Shown: piece by piece, positions 6,233-12,320 of the stretch
How positions within the stretch are numbered: position 1 is the first letter of the stretch
How the letters are laid out: every line of letters starts with the position of its first letter
Assembly (NCBI RefSeq): GCF_002294995.1
Contig: NZ_NSGF01000014.1
Location: 62,001 to 126,000, forward strand
Direction of reading: 5' to 3'
From: Mesorhizobium sp. WSM3860
GTDB taxonomy: Bacteria > Pseudomonadota > Alphaproteobacteria > Rhizobiales > Rhizobiaceae
DNA: 64,000 nt
The notes under the pieces: generated by a model
The model's input: the letters and a program-made list of their open reading frames with translations, nothing else
Told to the model about the DNA's origin: nothing
Databases searched by the model: none
Made by a program: the position numbers and the translations under genes

Positions 6233-6979
6233 TCACCGGCGTGCGAAGCTGAAGGCGAAATGGCTGCCGCGATGATAGACGGCGGCATAGACGACCGGGG
6301 TCCCGGTCGCATCGAAGCAGGTTTCCGTAATGAGCAGCGCCGGCCCAAAATCGCGCAGGTCGTTGCGCTGCACGATTTCGTCCGGCAGCGTCACGGCTGA
6401 AACCGAGGCGGCCGACATACGCGGCTGGTGGCGATGTTTTTCCAATAGCGCGAGCAGCGAACCACTCCATTCGATGTCGAAAAGGCGGCCGGGCAAAAGG
6501 CTGCGCGGCACGTAATCCAGCGAGTAGATGAGGGGCACGTCGTTGTGCAGGCGCAGCCGTTCCAGCCTAATGACGCGCTCTCCGTCCGCCAGCCGCAATT
6601 GCTGCTGGATCACCGGCTCGGGCGTTTCCTCGGCGATGGACAGAACCTTGTTGATGGTGTCATAGCCATAATGGCGTGACATGTCGGTCACGCTTTCGAA
6701 CATCGTGATCGGCCGGTCGACCTGCACGGCAGAGCTGGCTGTGACGAAGCGGCCGAGCCCATGGGTGACGGAAATGACGCCGTCCTGTTCGAGAAGCTTC
6801 AGCGCTTCCCGCAGGGCAGGGCGCGAGATGCGGAAGCGCTGCGTCAATTGCGACTCGGTCGGCAGCCGGTCGCCGGGCTTGAGCCCCTCGCTCCTGATCA
6901 GGTCGGCAAGGCGGTCGCGGAGTTGGACCGCCAATGTGCGCGCATCCCGAAGCGGCTCGTCCAAGTCCCTCATCCCCAT
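6233..6979 (-). CDS. frlR: GntR/UTRA regulator of the Amadori-compound locus (FrlR-like)
   Basis: A 248-residue GntR-family regulator: winged helix at about 15-80 (GDRLPTESQLTQRFRISRPA, then EQDGVISVTHGLGRFV) and a UTRA ligand domain at about 95-245, the fold that binds sugar phosphates or amines in HutC/FrlR proteins. It is divergent from the deglycase and kinase genes. I prefer the ATG at 6979 (AAAGGAG about ten bases upstream) over the ATG at 7009, because the latter would put the start inside a perfect TTGTC-G-GACAA palindrome. The same palindrome lies before the deglycase and binding-protein genes, so it most likely represses all three units and itself. The name follows the neighbouring FrlB/FrlD-like genes. 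Confidence 0.75.
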   Translation of the reverse strand: MGMRDLDEPLRDARTLAVQLRDRLADLIRSEGLKPGDRLPTESQLTQRFRISRPALREALKLLEQDGVISVTHGLGRFVTASSAVQVDRPITMFESVTDMSRHYGYDTINKVLSIAEETPEPVIQQQLRLADGERVIRLERLRLHNDVPLIYSLDYVPRSLLPGRLFDIEWSGSLLALLEKHRHQPRMSAASVSAVTLPDEIVQRNDLRDFGPALLITETCFDATGTPVVYAAVYHRGSHFAFSFARR

Positions 6980-6997: not shown

Positions 6998-7010
6998 GTT
7001 GTCGGACAAT
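6998..7010. promoter_or_regulatory. FrlR-type operator 1 (regulator's own leader)
   Basis: GTTGTCGGACAAT contains a perfect TTGTC-G-GACAA palindrome. It ends 18 bases before the regulator's chosen start at 6979. Copies with one mismatch occur at 7120-7132 and 12194-12206 at 20 bases before other start codons of the locus. Confidence 0.7.
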
Positions 7011-7119
7011 CGGGGCTAGGTCAAGCGGCGGTATGTCGAGGCGCCCCACATGCGGCATACGACAATTTATGGGAGCCGGTTCGCGAAATTTCCCTTGAAA
7101 TGCGCCCGCCGGGATGTCA

Positions 7120-7132
7120 GTTGTCTTACAAC
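7120..7132. promoter_or_regulatory. FrlR-type operator 2 (before the deglycase gene)
   Basis: GTTGTCTTACAAC, one mismatch from TTGTC-N-GACAA and with longer outer arms (GTTGT/ACAAC). It lies 20 bases before the start at 7153, a place suited to blocking transcription initiation or early elongation. Confidence 0.7.
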
Positions 7133-7152
7133 TAAAAGCGATCGAGGAAACG

Positions 7153-8166
7153 ATGCTCAATTTCGACGAAGCCCGGTTTGTGCGCATTCAATCGGGGGCG
7201 GTGGCTTTGCGGGAGCGCATTGAAACCGCCGTTGCGCAATGCCTTTCCTCCGGTGCACAAAACATCTTCTTCCTTGGCACCGGCGGCGCGGCGATCCTGA
7301 TGCATCCGGCCGCGCAATTGCTGCAGCGCCGATCCGGCTTTCCCGCCTTCGTCGATATCACTGCCGAGCTGCAGCTTGCCCAGTCCGTGCACCTCACCGA
7401 GAAGTCGATCGTCGTGCTGCCTTCGCTCTCCGGCACCACCAAGGAAAGCGTGGCGCTGCTGGCCCGGATCAAGGAGATCGGAGCGACGGTGATCACGCTG
7501 GTCGGGCATGAGGAGACGCCGCTCGGCAGGGGCGGGGACCACGTCTTCGTCAACTTCGCTGAGGATGACACCTCCTGCGAGTCCTTCTACCTCCAGTCGC
7601 TGTTCATCGCGCTTTCGGTGCTGAAGCACCGCGGCGAGCTCGCCGAATCCGAACGCATTTTCGCCGAGCTGGCGCAGTTGCCGCAATTGCTGCTGGAGGT
7701 GAAGCGGAGCTATGAAAAGCAAGCCGCCGACTTCGCTCAAAAACTGGCCGCCTCCGACTATCACATCATAACCGGCGCCGGGAACGTCTGGCCGCAGGCC
7801 TGGTATTACGGCATGTGCATCCTGGAAGAGATGCAATGGATCCGGACCCGTCCCGTGCATGCCTCAGATTTTTTCCACGGCACGCTGGAGCTGGTGGAAA
7901 AAGATGTGAGCGTGGTTCTTTTCAAGGGCGAAGACAGCGCCCGGCCGCTGGCCGAGCGGGTCGAGAACTTCGCAGGTAACTACACGGACAAGACGACGGT
8001 GCTCGACACGGCCGCCTTCGAACTGCCCGGCATTTCTGCGGATGTGCGCGCGCTGGTTTCGCCGATCGTGCTGGCCACCGCCCTCGAACGCGTCAGCGCT
8101 CATCTCGAGGTGATCCGCAACCACCCGCTGACGACGCGCCGCTACTATAAGCGCGTAGCCTATTGA
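7153..8166 (+). CDS. frlB: SIS-domain fructosamine 6-phosphate deglycase (FrlB-like)
   Basis: Cytoplasmic enzyme of 337 residues, the length of E. coli FrlB (about 340). FrlB splits fructoselysine 6-phosphate into glucose 6-phosphate and lysine. Two SIS sugar-isomerase domains are visible (about 30-170 and 195-330): FLGTGGAA and SLSGTTKES in the first, then the FrlB-type block SDFFHGTLELVE with its histidine and glutamates, and a C-terminal RRYYKRVAY resembling the FrlB tail. The ATG at 7153 follows GAGGA. A kinase gene follows 43 bases on, the same pairing as in known frl operons. Which amino acid carries the sugar is not determinable. Confidence 0.8.
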   Translation: MLNFDEARFVRIQSGAVALRERIETAVAQCLSSGAQNIFFLGTGGAAILMHPAAQLLQRRSGFPAFVDITAELQLAQSVHLTEKSIVVLPSLSGTTKESVALLARIKEIGATVITLVGHEETPLGRGGDHVFVNFAEDDTSCESFYLQSLFIALSVLKHRGELAESERIFAELAQLPQLLLEVKRSYEKQAADFAQKLAASDYHIITGAGNVWPQAWYYGMCILEEMQWIRTRPVHASDFFHGTLELVEKDVSVVLFKGEDSARPLAERVENFAGNYTDKTTVLDTAAFELPGISADVRALVSPIVLATALERVSAHLEVIRNHPLTTRRYYKRVAY

Positions 8167-8209
8167 GCGCCTGCCTTCAGCGGCAGCGCTTCATGGCGTA
8201 GCAGTGGAT

Positions 8210-9022
8210 ATGACCCAATTTCGATTTGCCGCCGTCGGCGACAATTGCACTGACCGCCTCGGCTTGCCGATCGGACGCTCGCTGGTCGGCGGCAACGCGC
8301 TCAACGTCGCCGTCCAGCTCGCCCGGCTTGGCCACAGGAGCTTCTATTTCGGCGCCGTCGGCCGCGACGCCGAGGGTGAGCGCACCCGCGCCGAGCTCGA
8401 AGCCAATCGGGTCGTGGTCGACCACCTGCGCGTCGGCGAACGCACCACCGCCTGGACCGACATCAAAGTGTTGCCGTCCGGTGAGCGGCTGATTGCCGCC
8501 GAGGATTTCGGCGCCTGCGCCGGATACGCGCCGCACGAGGCCGAGCTTGCGATCCTGGCAGCGATGGATCACGTCCATATCGGCTGGCTGGATGACGGCG
8601 GCGACTTGCGCAGGCGCCTGTCGCGGGCAGGCGTCAGCGTCTCGCAGGACATTTCGGTCAACGCCGATCCGGCCAATCTGGGCGTCGAGGGGTTGAGCGT
8701 AGCCTTCTGCTCGACCGGCGAACCCCGTGATGCCGCGGCGGCAATGGCGGCGCATCTTCTGTCGCGCGGCGCGGGCTGCGCCGTCGTCATGCGCGGTGCC
8801 GAGGGATCTTTGGCGCTGACGGGCGGCGAACGCGCCGAGACCGGCATCCGTCCGGTCGAGGTCGTCGACACGACCGGCGCCGGCGACAGTTTCATTGCCG
8901 GCTTTCTCCACGCCTGGCTGGCCAAAAAGCCGCTGTTGCAATGCCTCGAAAGCGGCCGCGACCGCGCCGCGCTGACCTGCTGCCATCTCGGCGGCTTCCC
9001 CCAGGAGGGGATGCCGCACTGA
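8210..9022 (+). CDS. frlD: PfkB-family fructosamine 6-kinase (FrlD-like)
   Basis: Ribokinase-fold sugar kinase of about 270 residues. FrlD phosphorylates fructoselysine at C6, making the FrlB substrate. Seen: the N-terminal AVGDNC and GGNALNVAVQLARLG (sugar-binding PfkB signature) and VDTTGAGDSFIAGF near the C-terminus, holding the catalytic aspartate at about residue 226. The opening VGDNC-D...GGNA pattern is as in FrlD rather than fructokinases. Start is either this ATG or the GTG six bases earlier; neither has a strong ribosome site, so coupling to the upstream deglycase gene is likely. Its stop lies three bases from the end of the convergent permease gene. Confidence 0.8.
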   Translation: MTQFRFAAVGDNCTDRLGLPIGRSLVGGNALNVAVQLARLGHRSFYFGAVGRDAEGERTRAELEANRVVVDHLRVGERTTAWTDIKVLPSGERLIAAEDFGACAGYAPHEAELAILAAMDHVHIGWLDDGGDLRRRLSRAGVSVSQDISVNADPANLGVEGLSVAFCSTGEPRDAAAAMAAHLLSRGAGCAVVMRGAEGSLALTGGERAETGIRPVEVVDTTGAGDSFIAGFLHAWLAKKPLLQCLESGRDRAALTCCHLGGFPQEGMPH

Positions 9023-9025
9023 AGT

Positions 9026-9997
9026 TCAGCGCTTCAGCGAGCGCCCGAACCGTTCCTCGATGCGGGACTGCAGGAATTCGAGCCCGATCGACAGCAGCCA
9101 GTAGATCATCGAGGCGGTGATCAGCATCTCGATGTGCCGGAACTCGGTCTGGCCCTGCGTGCGCGCCAGATACATGATCTCCCATACGCCGACCACCGAA
9201 ACCAGCGAGGAATCCTTCAGCATCGCGATGAATTGGTTACCGGTCGGGGGCACGATGACGCGCATCGCCTGCGGCAGGATCACCAGGAACATCGTCTGGT
9301 TGGGGCTGAGGCCAAGCGCGGTGGCGCCCTCCGTCTGGCCGCGCGGAATGCTTTCGATGCCGGCCCGGAAAATCTCGGTCATGTAGGCGCCGTAGCAGAG
9401 CGACAGCGCCATGATGCCGGCGGGTACGGCCCCGATCACGTAACCGACCTGCGGCAGGCCGAGATAGATGAGATAGATCTGCATCAGCAATGGCAGCCCG
9501 CGAAACAGCGAGGTGTAGAACGTTGCCAGGCCATAGACGACGCCGTTCTTGGAGAGCTTGGCTATAGCGCCGATGAAGGCGATGACGGTGGCGATGGCGA
9601 TCGAAATGGCGGAGATGTAGAGCGTCGTCACCACGCCCTGCGAGATGAGGAAGCCGATCTTCCTGGCAATGAAAGACAACGACAGGTCGAAGGAATAGAA
9701 GAACAGCATCAGCAGCGTGAACAGCTCGATCCATACGGCCACGATCTGCTGCTTGCGCCCGAGCTGCTGCAGGGCTTTCCAGTTGGCCGCCGCGATCAGC
9801 GCGATCAGCACCGCCGAAACGCCCCGCGCTGCCGTGGGATTGACGGCGAGCCATCCGAGGGAACTCGGGATCAGCTTGCCGATCCAGTCGGCTTTGATGC
9901 CAAGGCCGTAGAGGCCTGCGGCGAGCGCGGCGAGCGCCAGGCACACGCCGATGCGGCGCGCGGCGTCCGGATAATTGAGCAGCAATCTGCCGATCAC
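9026..9997 (-). CDS. Amino-acid ABC transporter permease (His/Glu/Gln/opine family)
   Basis: Polytopic inner-membrane protein of 323 residues. The C-terminal two thirds is a standard HisM/GlnP-type permease with the EAA loop (GIESIPRGQTEGATALGLSP, about 225-250). The first hundred residues add extra membrane segments, which occurs in fused-type amino-acid permeases. It is the last gene of a leftward unit: binding protein, FAD oxidase, permease, with 18 bases between oxidase and permease. No second permease and no ATPase gene is present in the locus, so it must homodimerise and borrow an ATPase encoded elsewhere, or the system is incomplete. The substrate is presumably a fructosyl-amino acid or opine-like compound. 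Confidence 0.87.
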   Translation of the reverse strand: MIGRLLLNYPDAARRIGVCLALAALAAGLYGLGIKADWIGKLIPSSLGWLAVNPTAARGVSAVLIALIAAANWKALQQLGRKQQIVAVWIELFTLLMLFFYSFDLSLSFIARKIGFLISQGVVTTLYISAISIAIATVIAFIGAIAKLSKNGVVYGLATFYTSLFRGLPLLMQIYLIYLGLPQVGYVIGAVPAGIMALSLCYGAYMTEIFRAGIESIPRGQTEGATALGLSPNQTMFLVILPQAMRVIVPPTGNQFIAMLKDSSLVSVVGVWEIMYLARTQGQTEFRHIEMLITASMIYWLLSIGLEFLQSRIEERFGRSLKR

Positions 9998-10015
9998 CTG
10001 TCGATCTCCCTGTGG

Positions 10016-11308
10016 TCAGCGGGGGCGTTCGCGCCACCAGTCTTGCGCCTGTAGCTTCCAATAGGTGAGTTGCGCCGCGGCAAGCCCGACCGGCCCGCCC
10101 GCCCAGGTCAGCCCGAAGCGTTCGAACAGCCGGTACCGGTCCGACTGGCCGAGAATCGCCTCGGCCACCACCTTGCCGGCCATGGCGGTGGTGTTGATGC
10201 CGTGGCCGCCAAACGCGGTGAGATACCAGACGCCCGGCTGCAGCTGCCCGATCTGGGGCATCAGGTGCCGGGCGTAGGCCATCAGCCCCGACCAGGCGAG
10301 TTCGGTCTTGAGCGCAGCGAGCTGAGGGTAGGTTCCGACCATCTCCCGGCGCAATTCCCTGGCCAGCGCCGCCGGCGAAGCGGCCCGCGTGCTGATGCGC
10401 CCACCCCAGAGCAGCCGCCTCCCGTCTTCCACGACGCGGTAATAGTCGCCGGCGCGGCGGTTGTCGCCTATGCCATCGGTCGTCGCGATGGCGCTGGCGA
10501 TGAGCTCCGGGGCCTCTTCGCTCAGCATCACATAGGTCGCAATCGGCAACATGGCCCGCCTCAACTGGCCGAGCAGCCGTCCTGTGTACCCGCCGGTGGC
10601 GAACACCGCCTGCCGCGCGCGTACTTCGCCGTTTGCGGCGCGTATGGTTTTTTGCGGGCCGTCGAGTCTCGCCTCGAGGGCACTCGACGCCTCGTGGATC
10701 CTGCCGCCCAGCCGCTCGATCTCGTGGGCGACAGCGCGCAGGTAGTTGAGCGGATGCATGTGGAAGGCGTTGGCGTCGCGCAGGCCCTGAAAGTAGCGAT
10801 CGGAATGCAGCACCGCGCGCACCTGGTCACGCTCGAGATATTCGAGCGGATAGTCGAAATCCCGCGCCAGCCGTTCGGCGTGGGCCTTCAGTTCGGCGCC
10901 GCCCTCATGGCGCAGCACGCCGATAATTCCGGGGCGAGGCTTTGCCGCCTCGATGCCGAGATCCTTGATCGTCTGCCGCACGAATTCGACGCCTTCGATC
11001 GACAATCGGTGCAGCTTCTGTGCCGCCGCGGCGCCGGCCATCGAGGCGATATTGTCGCTGCCGGTGGCGAAGCCGGGGCTGACGAAGCCACCGTTGCGGC
11101 CCGAGGCGCCGAAGCCGACGCGCTCGGCTTCGAGCAGGACGATCTCGCGTCCGGCGCGGGCGAGCTGCAGCGCCGTCGTCAGACCGGCCAGTCCGCCACC
11201 GACAATGATTGTGTCGCATTCTGCCAGACCCGCCAATGGTGGTCTGACCTTCGCGTCGGCAAGCGTGCGGCGATAATAAGTATCGGGATAGGTCATGATG
11301 AATCGCAT
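10016..11308 (-). CDS. FAD-dependent amine/amino-acid oxidase of the DAO (PuuB/OrdL-like) family
   Basis: Cytoplasmic flavoprotein of 430 residues. The dinucleotide motif IIVGGGLAGLTTALQLARAG is at about 34-53, followed by GASGRNGGF, and the C-terminus has the FAD-closing GGHGINTTAMAGKVVAEAI. Family members oxidise secondary amines such as gamma-glutamylputrescine or sarcosine. Set in an Amadori locus it may oxidatively cleave a fructosyl-amino acid directly (an amadoriase role, as with SocD of Agrobacterium), or process the released amine; this is inference. A ten-base-arm hairpin sits just upstream. The start could also be the ATG at 11296; no strong ribosome site favours either. Confidence 0.83.
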   Translation of the reverse strand: MRFIMTYPDTYYRRTLADAKVRPPLAGLAECDTIIVGGGLAGLTTALQLARAGREIVLLEAERVGFGASGRNGGFVSPGFATGSDNIASMAGAAAAQKLHRLSIEGVEFVRQTIKDLGIEAAKPRPGIIGVLRHEGGAELKAHAERLARDFDYPLEYLERDQVRAVLHSDRYFQGLRDANAFHMHPLNYLRAVAHEIERLGGRIHEASSALEARLDGPQKTIRAANGEVRARQAVFATGGYTGRLLGQLRRAMLPIATYVMLSEEAPELIASAIATTDGIGDNRRAGDYYRVVEDGRRLLWGGRISTRAASPAALARELRREMVGTYPQLAALKTELAWSGLMAYARHLMPQIGQLQPGVWYLTAFGGHGINTTAMAGKVVAEAILGQSDRYRLFERFGLTWAGGPVGLAAAQLTYWKLQAQDWWRERPR

Positions 11309-11312
11309 GAGA

Positions 11313-11337
11313 GCGGGCGGCCTTGAGGGCCGCCCGC
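11313..11337 (-). terminator. Stem-loop between binding-protein and oxidase genes
   Basis: Perfect ten-base arms GCGGGCGGCC and GGCCGCCCGC around TTGAG, with no T-run. Placed directly after a binding-protein gene inside an operon, it probably stabilises the upstream message and lowers downstream expression rather than ending transcription fully. Confidence 0.6.
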
Positions 11338-11345
11338 GACGAGCG

Positions 11346-12173
11346 TCAGTCGGCGCTGTAGTTCTTGCCGTACCACTTGGTGGTCAGCGTGGCGAGCGTG
11401 CCGTCTTTTTTCATCTGGTCGATGATGCCGCCGATCTTGGTGGTCCACTCGGCGTCGCCCTTGTCCGCGATCACCACCAGCGGCTCGCGGAAGGCGTAGT
11501 CGCCCTCGAGGATGCGCAGCGGATACCCGTTCTTGATGGCGTTCTGGGCGGTCTGCTCGGGCGCGATGACTGCGTCGAGCCTCACGCCGTCCCCAAGTCT
11601 CAAATCGTCGAATGGCAGCATGGAATCGGCGAAGGTCCGGATCTCGCCCGGTTGCAGCTTGTATTCGACTGGCGGAAGGCCGGGAGCGTCGATCTCCAAC
11701 TGACGCCGGATGAAATCTTCCGAAGTGGTGGCGGTTTCGACCCCGATTACCTTGCCGTTCAGGTCGTTTACGGACTTCGCCTTGCTGTCCTTGTGGACCA
11801 CATAGACATAAGGGCTGTAATAATAGATGCCGGCGAAATCGATCACTTTGGCCCGGGCTTTGGTCGGCGTCACCGAGCCGACGCCGAGATCGTAACGGCC
11901 CTGCCAGTGGCCGCCGGTCATTGTGGCCCAATCGGGCGTCTCGAAGCTGACCTCCACGCCCAGGCGCTTGGCGATCTCTTTCGAGACGTCGATATCAAAG
12001 CCCACCAACTGATTGCTTTCGTCGAGAAAGCTCTGCGGCGGCCAGCCGCTGTTGGTCGCGACCACCATGGCCTTCTTGGATGTGACGCGATCCAGGGTTT
12101 CTCCCGCCCGCGCTGCCGACACAAATGCGAGCGCGCCGGCAGCCAGCGCGAAACAAGCGATCAATTTCCTCAC
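11346..12173 (-). CDS. Periplasmic amino-acid-type ABC substrate-binding protein
   Basis: Family-3 solute-binding protein of 275 residues. The signal peptide runs to about residue 23 (ALAFVSAARA then GET). The mature part shows family-3 features: FDIDVSKEIAKRLGVEVSFE, DLNGKVIGVETATTSEDFIRR and DDLRLGDGVRLDAVIA. I chose the GTG at 12173 because GAGGGAGG lies four bases before it; the longer frame to 12257 would add a non-signal leader and contain the operator. Operator 3 of the FrlR-type set lies 20 bases before this start. It captures the compound imported by the permease at 9026, presumably a fructosyl-amino acid. Confidence 0.87.
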   Translation of the reverse strand: MRKLIACFALAAGALAFVSAARAGETLDRVTSKKAMVVATNSGWPPQSFLDESNQLVGFDIDVSKEIAKRLGVEVSFETPDWATMTGGHWQGRYDLGVGSVTPTKARAKVIDFAGIYYYSPYVYVVHKDSKAKSVNDLNGKVIGVETATTSEDFIRRQLEIDAPGLPPVEYKLQPGEIRTFADSMLPFDDLRLGDGVRLDAVIAPEQTAQNAIKNGYPLRILEGDYAFREPLVVIADKGDAEWTTKIGGIIDQMKKDGTLATLTTKWYGKNYSAD

Positions 12174-12193
12174 GAAACCTCCCTCGTATGTAA

Positions 12194-12206
12194 GATGTCT
12201 GACAAC
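12194..12206. promoter_or_regulatory. FrlR-type operator 3 (before the binding-protein gene)
   Basis: GATGTCTGACAAC matches the other two sites at 11 of 13 positions versus operator 2, and holds TGTC-T-GACA. It lies 20 bases before the GTG start at 12173, the same offset as at the deglycase gene, which puts the uptake unit under the same regulator. Confidence 0.68.
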
Positions 12207-12320
12207 GCAAATTGTCCCGAAGCGGCAGGGCGAGTCAAGCATCTTTTGTCGGGGCATTGCCGAGTTCAGCCTGTAGTGGGCGTCCAGCGCTGGGGGCTCG
12301 TGCCGCTCCCCGCCCCAGCC

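Follow-up and report, generated by a model that had tools for sequence, protein, structure and literature searches.

The 64-kilobase window analysed here, a stretch of the Mesorhizobium sp. WSM3860 genome, contains a compact gene cluster made up of a GntR-family regulator, a deglycase and kinase pair, and an opposing unit of binding-protein, oxidase and permease genes. Short palindromic sites lie before the regulator, deglycase and binding-protein genes, and we propose that these three sites are operators of the adjacent regulator. The cluster is laid out as follows (aa, amino acids; bp, base pairs; ABC, ATP-binding cassette; FAD, flavin adenine dinucleotide).

6236..6979, minus strand: GntR-family regulator, FadR-like winged helix and UTRA effector domain, 248 aa, start ATG 6979 (alternatives ATG 6973 and TTG 6964)
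6999..7009, no strand assigned: putative regulator operator, a bare 11-bp palindrome, its sense side without the third half-site described below
7114..7132, minus strand (antisense to the gene): putative composite deglycase operator GTTGTAAGACAACTGACAT, inner palindrome at 7121-7131
7153..8166, plus strand: FrlB-like SIS-domain sugar-phosphate deglycase, 337 aa (PF01380)
8210..9022, plus strand: FrlD-like PfkB-family sugar kinase, 270 aa (PF00294, 117 bits)
9026..9997, minus strand: polar-amino-acid-type ABC permease, 323 aa (PF00528; TIGR01726 at 96.2 bits, cut-off 42.2)
10016..11308, minus strand: FAD-dependent oxidoreductase of the DAO family, 430 aa (PF01266, 203 bits)
11346..12173, minus strand: family-3 amino-acid-type solute-binding protein, 275 aa (PF00497, 112 bits)
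12188..12206, minus strand (sense): putative composite binding-protein operator GTTGTCAGACATCTTACAT, inner 11-mer at 12195-12205

A first-pass annotation had placed 13-base sites at 6998-7010, 7120-7132 and 12194-12206, and there the sequence reads directly as GTTGTCGGACAAT, GTTGTCTTACAAC and GATGTCTGACAAC, respectively. The inner 11-mers, TTGTCGGACAA (6999-7009), TTGTCTTACAA (7121-7131) and ATGTCTGACAA (12195-12205), carry 0, 1 and 1 mismatches to TTGTCNGACAA, in agreement with the described pattern of one perfect palindrome and two sites with a one-base departure. The reported gaps of 18, 20 and 20 bases from the 13-mers to ATG 6979 (minus strand), ATG 7153 (plus strand) and GTG 12173 (minus strand) were likewise confirmed in the window. 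Five matches to TTGTCNGACAA at no more than one mismatch occur in the 64 kilobases, compared with 0.97 expected, and none of 100 shuffles reaches five; at the genomic density of 158 matches per 6.37 megabases, three sites within 5.2 kilobases have a Poisson probability of 3e-4. However, the 11-mer is not enriched genome-wide (158 matches at no more than one mismatch, 166 for the reversed control), and eight of its nine exact copies lie outside this cluster. The 11-mer alone therefore proves nothing and was rejected as a genome-wide regulon finder; the three sites are judged real because they are conserved in relatives.

When the surroundings of the eight other exact copies were inspected, with genes recognised by eye, none adjoined genes of this cluster. 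Three directly precede MucR/Ros-like genes (L026:4246; L029:4151 and 5696). The two L029 copies have flanking bases in common, and these MucR/Ros-adjacent 11-mers may be the site of a different regulator. Further copies, also judged by eye, lie within a long frame, before a Gfo/Idh-type frame and about 1 kilobase from a FadR-like frame.

Conservation was followed in loci collected by a regulator-alignment scan of named genomes, which gave 139 relatives. The best 80 of the 139 were used, the closest being that of Mesorhizobium sp. WSM3862 (98% identical), and together with the window they make 81 loci. Eight Microvirga loci (L120-L127) were set apart from the footprint, spacing and composite counts, which leaves 73 loci, namely the window and 72 relatives; L080 and L088 belong to one strain, and the non-redundant sets number 48 (regulator), 53 (deglycase) and 47 (binding protein). 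A site was counted at no more than one mismatch to TTGTCNGACAA near the regulator, two to TTGTCTTACAA before the deglycase, and two to TTGTCNGACAT before the binding protein. By these rules, the regulator is preceded by a site in 73/73 loci, the deglycase in 66 of the 69 loci with a deglycase match and flank (L062, L069, L084 and L111 have no deglycase at its place), and the binding protein in 71 of the 71 with gene and flank (L070 and L110 lack one or the other). In L080, L088 and L096, the deglycase is 59% identical and lacks such a site. After shuffling of the 150-base upstream regions, the 11-mer at no more than one mismatch appeared in 6/1460, 5/1320 and 9/1420 cases for the regulator, deglycase and binding protein, respectively.

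The alignments further revealed that the deglycase and binding-protein promoters carry a 19-bp composite, GTTGTMAGACAWCTKACAT, which joins the palindrome to a third half-site and stands in opposite orientations at the two genes. The two window copies, GTTGTAAGACAACTGACAT and GTTGTCAGACATCTTACAT, are identical at 16/19 positions. Over 66 loci, the deglycase 19-mer is invariant at 16 of its 19 positions; eight loci differ at the last position, and one or two at each of the remaining two. Compared with the consensus, 58, 7 and 1 loci show 0, 1 and 2 mismatches. The third half-site (CTKACA, at +11..+16 of the 11-mer) repeats the arm of the palindrome, TGTMAG, in inverted form and lies in the range of 7-12 nucleotides from the centre. 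It reads CTGACA in all 66 deglycase loci and CTTACA at the binding protein, where each base is kept in at least 67 of 71. Even the "mismatch" bases within the palindrome are conserved: position 6 of the deglycase 19-mer is A in 64/66 loci, and position 12 of the binding-protein 19-mer is T in 68/71. The regulator's own site has no third half-site on its sense side, where all 73 loci differ from CTTACA by 3-6 bases, and in the other orientation it departs from the 19-mer by 5-9 mismatches in the 73 loci.

The claim that all three sites share one palindromic motif consequently holds as far as the palindrome is concerned, present at 0-1 mismatch in each, but it is incomplete, since two of them are 19-bp composites whose departures are themselves conserved. 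This bears on a simpler explanation, in which one 11- or 13-bp palindromic operator would serve all three promoters and the one-base differences would be ordinary degeneracy. Although every site contains the palindrome and the regulator's own site is exactly that, we regard this as quite unlikely given the constancy of the supposed mismatches, third half-sites about as strict as the palindrome itself and an 11-mer that by itself shows no genome-wide enrichment. The 17-mer core of the composite, TTGTMAGACAWCTKACA, by comparison matches the genome exactly at two places, both in this cluster. Allowing one mismatch adds no further place, and allowing two adds one. With three, the 17-mer is found no more often than its reversed control (9 and 6 against 11 and 11). 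The composite 17-mer core is specific and the 11-mer unspecific. A genome search had been suggested with the first-pass annotation, which named many unrelated sites as the outcome that would speak against it; such sites were found for the bare 11-mer, with its nine exact copies, but not for the composite 17-mer.

Seven loci without a cluster-type deglycase beside the regulator illustrate what happens to the composite there. Their elements carry 1, 1, 1, 1, 2, 3 and 7 mismatches (L069, L080, L088, L096, L111, L062 and L084, respectively), compared with none in 58 of the 66 loci that have the gene, while the regulator and binding-protein sites are retained. The changes fall in the third half-site in L111 and in L080, L088 and L096, which share the same altered base and so perhaps represent one event; in L069, only the outermost base is changed. 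Decay of the element where the gene is absent suggests that this operator is linked to the deglycase gene, although the independent losses are few. In two relatives (L069:9392-9829 and L172:7863-8300), the deglycase has been lost and only the C-terminal part of the kinase is left, immediately after a composite operator that is otherwise intact.

A second sample comprised 199 genomes of the family, our own genome counted. The deglycase protein search found 19 genomes, and the whole cluster is present in 12 of these (again including our own), with sites at the three promoters in 12/12. At no more than one mismatch, the composite 17-mer occurs twice in 13 of the 199 genomes and once in seven, whereas its reversed control gave a single match in three. 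The 13 genomes with two copies coincide exactly with those encoding a GntR protein at least 68% identical to the regulator (Fisher 1e-20, not corrected for kinship). At E <= 1e-70, the regulator was found in 14 sampled genomes, and the site pair accompanies it in 13/14 and occurs in 0/185 others; the fourteenth regulator (G070), 56% identical, has no composite pair. The proposals that the three sites belong with one regulator and that the opposing binding-protein/oxidase/permease unit is part of the same regulon are both upheld by these counts, the latter by its site in 71/71 loci and by the coincidence in 13 of 199 genomes. As a prediction from comparative sequence, a conserved GntR regulon with three promoters is well supported.

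The same figures bear on the idea that another regulator, a FadR-type GntR protein encoded elsewhere in the genome, binds these sites. Their GT-N3-AC core would suit the FadR-subfamily consensus of 2-3 nucleotides, as given in PMC4494728, and one stray exact 11-mer lies near the FadR-like frame mentioned above. Nevertheless, this seems most improbable, because composite pairs and the adjacent regulator occur in the same 13 genomes, the adjacent regulator's own promoter has the site in 73/73 loci, and its DNA-binding domain is itself FadR-like.

Besides the unspecific 11-mer, several observations weigh against a regulon of this form. The loci were picked by regulator similarity (the best 80 of 139) and include many close relatives, and 8/66 loci having the deglycase also show 1-2 mismatches in the 19-mer, like some of those without it. 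Seven family genomes outside the 13 hold a single one-mismatch composite site, and four of the six that were read have it near another GntR-like frame (all but G111). Such positions would make a palindrome with an extra half-site a wider GntR habit, in agreement with PMC4494728. Microvirga, whose regulators are 60-63% identical, departs further. In 6/8 of its loci, the regulator is followed on the same strand by the binding-protein, oxidase and permease genes and then by an ATPase frame. The binding-protein gene has no site in 6/6 readable loci, the best match showing 3 mismatches. In 5/5 Microvirga loci with a deglycase, the palindrome persists at no more than one mismatch, 39-59 bases ahead of that gene, but the bases behind the palindrome are CTGTC or CTGG, not CTKACA. 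Finally, judged by eye, the operators would overlap -10 boxes that match poorly.

Spacing was a further argument of the first-pass annotation, which took the constant distance from site to start codon as support for the chosen starts. This did not hold up. For each gap, the end point was the base homologous to the start codon in the window, by extrapolation where the protein match set in further on, and not an annotated start. Over the 73 loci, the gaps span 13-37 bases for the regulator, 20-70 for the deglycase and 21-126 for the binding protein. The original offset values are common only to Mesorhizobium loci, the gaps from the 11-mer being 19, 20-21 and 21-23 in the window and L049-L056, and a constant operator-to-start offset was discarded as a rule. 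The distance to a probable -35 box is nearly invariant instead. These boxes lie in the window at the following positions.

7019..7024, minus strand: probable -35 box TTGACC of the regulator promoter, 15 bases from the palindrome
7095..7100, plus strand: probable -35 box TTGAAA of the deglycase promoter, 26 bases from the palindrome
12233..12238, minus strand: probable -35 box TTGACT of the binding-protein promoter, 33 bases from the 11-mer

The first T of TTGAC is at distance 15 from the 11-mer in 73/73 regulator promoters, and that of TTGA at 26 in 65/66 deglycase promoters; before the binding-protein gene, TTGAC is found at 31-35 in 70/71 loci, with 33 in 48. Fixed spacing to the -35 box and variable spacing to the start indicate that the operators are set by the promoter and not by the start codon. 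With the usual -35/-10 spacing, the palindrome would cover the spacer and -10 box at the regulator, the -10 box and transcription start at the deglycase, and the start and early transcribed bases at the binding protein, and all three positions would suit repression. The two divergent sites move apart as the intergenic region lengthens (r = 0.84, n = 66), a behaviour that PMC4494728 treats as a sign of two independent sites. The conserved third segment might alternatively be a promoter or RNA element and not part of an operator, since, judged from spacing, it would be close to where the -10 box of the deglycase is expected and would belong to the predicted 5′ leader in the binding-protein transcript. 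We consider this very improbable, as the same 19-bp element stands in opposite orientations and at different -35 distances at the two promoters, and as its third segment has the half-site sequence of the palindrome.

The regulator combines a UTRA domain (PF07702, 1.5e-28, 99.8 bits, cut-off 23.8) with a GntR DNA-binding domain (PF00392, 57.8 bits), and its orthologs in 12 other family loci are 56-73% identical. Its start is uncertain: the ortholog annotated in Sinorhizobium meliloti is 243 codons long, and alignments with relatives begin at codon 5 or 6, where the window has TTG 6964; a start there would change the 18-base gap. On its own, the winged helix matches FadR-family, PdhR, 2di3 and NanR chains ahead of YvoA, and the NCBIfam models are mixed. 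HutC sites mostly have 4 nucleotides between GT and AC, with exceptions, against 2-3 in the FadR consensus, according to PMC4494728. The operator core here has 3 nucleotides and thus lacks the spacing of most HutC members, which a FadR-like winged helix would explain despite the UTRA effector domain. The protein is accordingly of mixed character, a UTRA domain joined to a FadR-like winged helix with a FadR-type GT-N3-AC operator.

The deglycase matches 2a3n, 8glr, 3eua, 3fkj and 9ou6 over its full or nearly full length and groups with the FrlB-type SIS proteins; 2a3n scores 206 bits, and 3eua, deposited as "putative fructose-aminoacid-6-phosphate deglycase", scores 141. The five aligned chains keep both Glu226 and His242, which lie sixteen residues apart, and from work on FraB we take them to be the catalytic pair. 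An S. meliloti ortholog of the kinase is annotated as fructoselysine 6-kinase, and the best NCBIfam model of the oxidase is L-pipecolate oxidase (166 bits, below the cut-off of 600). Behind the permease, an ABC ATPase frame is absent within 2.2 kilobases in the window and L049-L056 (0/9 by a motif test), although the same test finds one in 32/78 loci. In this genome, the homolog nearest to the ATPase of the S. meliloti cluster (G000:C5:78475-79200, 71%) lies away from the window's cluster and suggests a shared ATPase. A candidate ATPase in the 900-base gap between kinase and permease in L031 was rejected, since the frame looks like a DMT-type transporter. Such a frame occurs at this place in some relatives (L031:11880-12790) and is so annotated on S. 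meliloti pSymB; in the window, the permease and kinase genes are 3 bases apart and leave no room for it.

Taken together, we favour, with a probability of roughly 0.8, a small autoregulated GntR regulon predicted to serve the uptake and breakdown of sugar-amine (fructosamine-type) compounds. One regulator gene and three promoters with conserved sites are seen in the sequence; repression, the inducer and the fructosamine substrate are our interpretation. Regarding the substrate, the 2a3n structure, the best match of the deglycase, is presumably a Salmonella Gfr protein. The Gfr system also uses glucoselysine (PMC12675984). A non-Amadori substrate (a Heyns-type glucosyl-amino acid, a mannityl opine or a different secondary amine), handled chiefly by the oxidase with the deglycase and kinase as accessories, is possible though rather doubtful. 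It would fit this structural match and a transporter of amino-acid rather than sugar type, as well as the 10/81 loci that keep the binding-protein/oxidase/permease unit without a cluster-type deglycase and kinase, where an independent route through the oxidase may exist. Four of those ten (L062, L080, L088 and L096), however, hold all or part of a paralogous FrlB/FrlD/oxidase set in the same 20 kilobases, 67/81 loci carry all five structural genes, and the best NCBIfam model of the kinase is fructoselysine 6-kinase.

The fructosamine assignment has its own weak points. The deglycase reaches 79 of 430 bits, below the NCBIfam equivalog cut-off, and the kinase 141 bits against a cut-off of 247. 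For the effector, the phosphate ligands of NagR, listed as Arg133, Arg135 and Ser165 in PMC4333415, align with R141, R143 and S174, which are invariant in 13 orthologs; the R-x-R pair also occurs in other UTRA proteins and is therefore weak evidence for a phosphorylated ligand, and the sugar-stacking Tyr167 of NagR aligns with Leu. Repression, in turn, would follow from the site positions and from the analogy with FrlR, whose sign was disputed in Bacillus subtilis.

The paralogous genes also form a second rhizobial system, with a 57-62% FrlB, a 37-40% FrlD and a 26-28% DAO oxidase (L043, L045, L046, L080, L088 and L096, and in part in L044 and L062); the recurring oxidase partner suggests shared chemistry. 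Near this second set, L080 has a LacI-type frame by eye. Ensifer adhaerens Lc04 (L080 and L088) carries two regulator/binding-protein/oxidase/permease units on two scaffolds, each beside a paralogous FrlB/FrlD/oxidase set.

In the fructosamine regulon that we favour, the regulator would act as a repressor that blocks RNA polymerase at the three promoters. One dimer would sit on the palindrome, and a second subunit or dimer would use the third half-site, so that the two metabolic units might be held more tightly than the regulator gene. A phosphorylated sugar-amine produced by the FrlD-like kinase would bind the UTRA domain and release the DNA, the FrlB-like deglycase would then split this compound, and the FAD oxidase would act on the same or a related substrate. 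As a more speculative and unlikely extension, the operators could encode the order of release, with one repressor bound in a different register at each promoter and hence three distinct affinities. Read in gene sense, both metabolic promoters have the same outer pair TGTCAG-N4-CTTACA. Between its halves stands a fixed centre, TTGT at the deglycase and ACAT at the binding protein, which turns the inner half-site to the right at one promoter and to the left at the other. If this were true, uptake and oxidase might, for example, be released before kinase and deglycase, with a bare palindrome at the regulator gene, and the affinities would be written in one 16-bp frame kept across rhizobial genera.

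The proposed system would represent a compact regulon for probable Amadori-compound use in rhizobia, with one regulator and three promoters. Its 17-19 bp motif finds the regulon in new genomes. The proposed regulon also connects a FrlB/FrlD pathway with an FAD oxidase that is uncharacterised and with a transporter of amino-acid type. Among the matches listed in the open-licence literature, there was no published account of a GntR operator or an Amadori regulon for this cluster in rhizobia.

The soc (santhopine) locus of Agrobacterium pAtC58, a system for deoxyfructosyl-glutamine, an Amadori compound, belongs to the same bacterial family and likewise combines a repressor, an amino-acid-type binding protein, a permease and an FAD oxidase. 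Its regulator, SocR, however, is annotated as LacI-family; the amadoriase-like SocD has only the FAD motif in common, SocA is 23% and the permease part of SocB 36% identical; the annotated soc genes include no SIS deglycase or PfkB kinase, and here there is no MocA-type SocC gene. On the grounds of the LacI regulator and the weak or absent similarity of SocA, SocB and SocD, soc was rejected as the parent system. The frl operons (B. subtilis frlBONMD-frlR-frlP and Escherichia coli frl) resemble the cluster in the FrlB-like deglycase, FrlD-like kinase and FrlR-type regulator. They use FrlONM where a family-3 amino-acid-type binding protein and permease are found here, and, unlike them, this cluster has an FAD oxidase in the regulon, two divergent units, three sites and no ATPase frame. 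In PMC12632257, B. subtilis FrlR is a repressor relieved by fructosevaline, against an earlier claim that it is an activator, and E. coli FrlR is proposed to respond to fructoselysine-6-phosphate.

With NagR/YvoA and DasR, members of the GntR/HutC group, the regulator shares the UTRA domain and counterparts of the three phosphate-binding residues, but its GT-N3-AC site differs from the 4-nucleotide spacing of most HutC sites (PMC4494728), and its DNA-binding domain is closer to the FadR/PdhR type. NanR, of which three dimers bind GGTATA repeats according to PMC8012715, is likewise a GntR protein that uses more than two half-sites through cooperative dimers and may serve as a model for the third half-site; unlike the regulator here, NanR recognises direct repeats and has a 32-residue N-terminal extension, whereas the N-terminus here is shorter (query residue 14 aligns with NanR residue 30). 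The closest precedent lies in the extra half-sites 7-12 nucleotides from GntR palindrome centres described by Suvorova et al. (2015, PMC4494728), who count such additional boxes in 23 groups, 4 of them HutC, and leave their function to experiment, a question for which this cluster offers a natural case. Both share a palindrome with an adjacent half-site, here about 8.5 nucleotides from the centre, and two independent sites in a divergon. In that study, the boxes score on average about half a true half-site. Here, the conservation of the third half-site roughly equals that of the palindrome, and the two metabolic promoters have it whereas the regulator's own does not. The kind of control is already known, and the strictness and asymmetric use of the third half-site make this cluster a variant of it.

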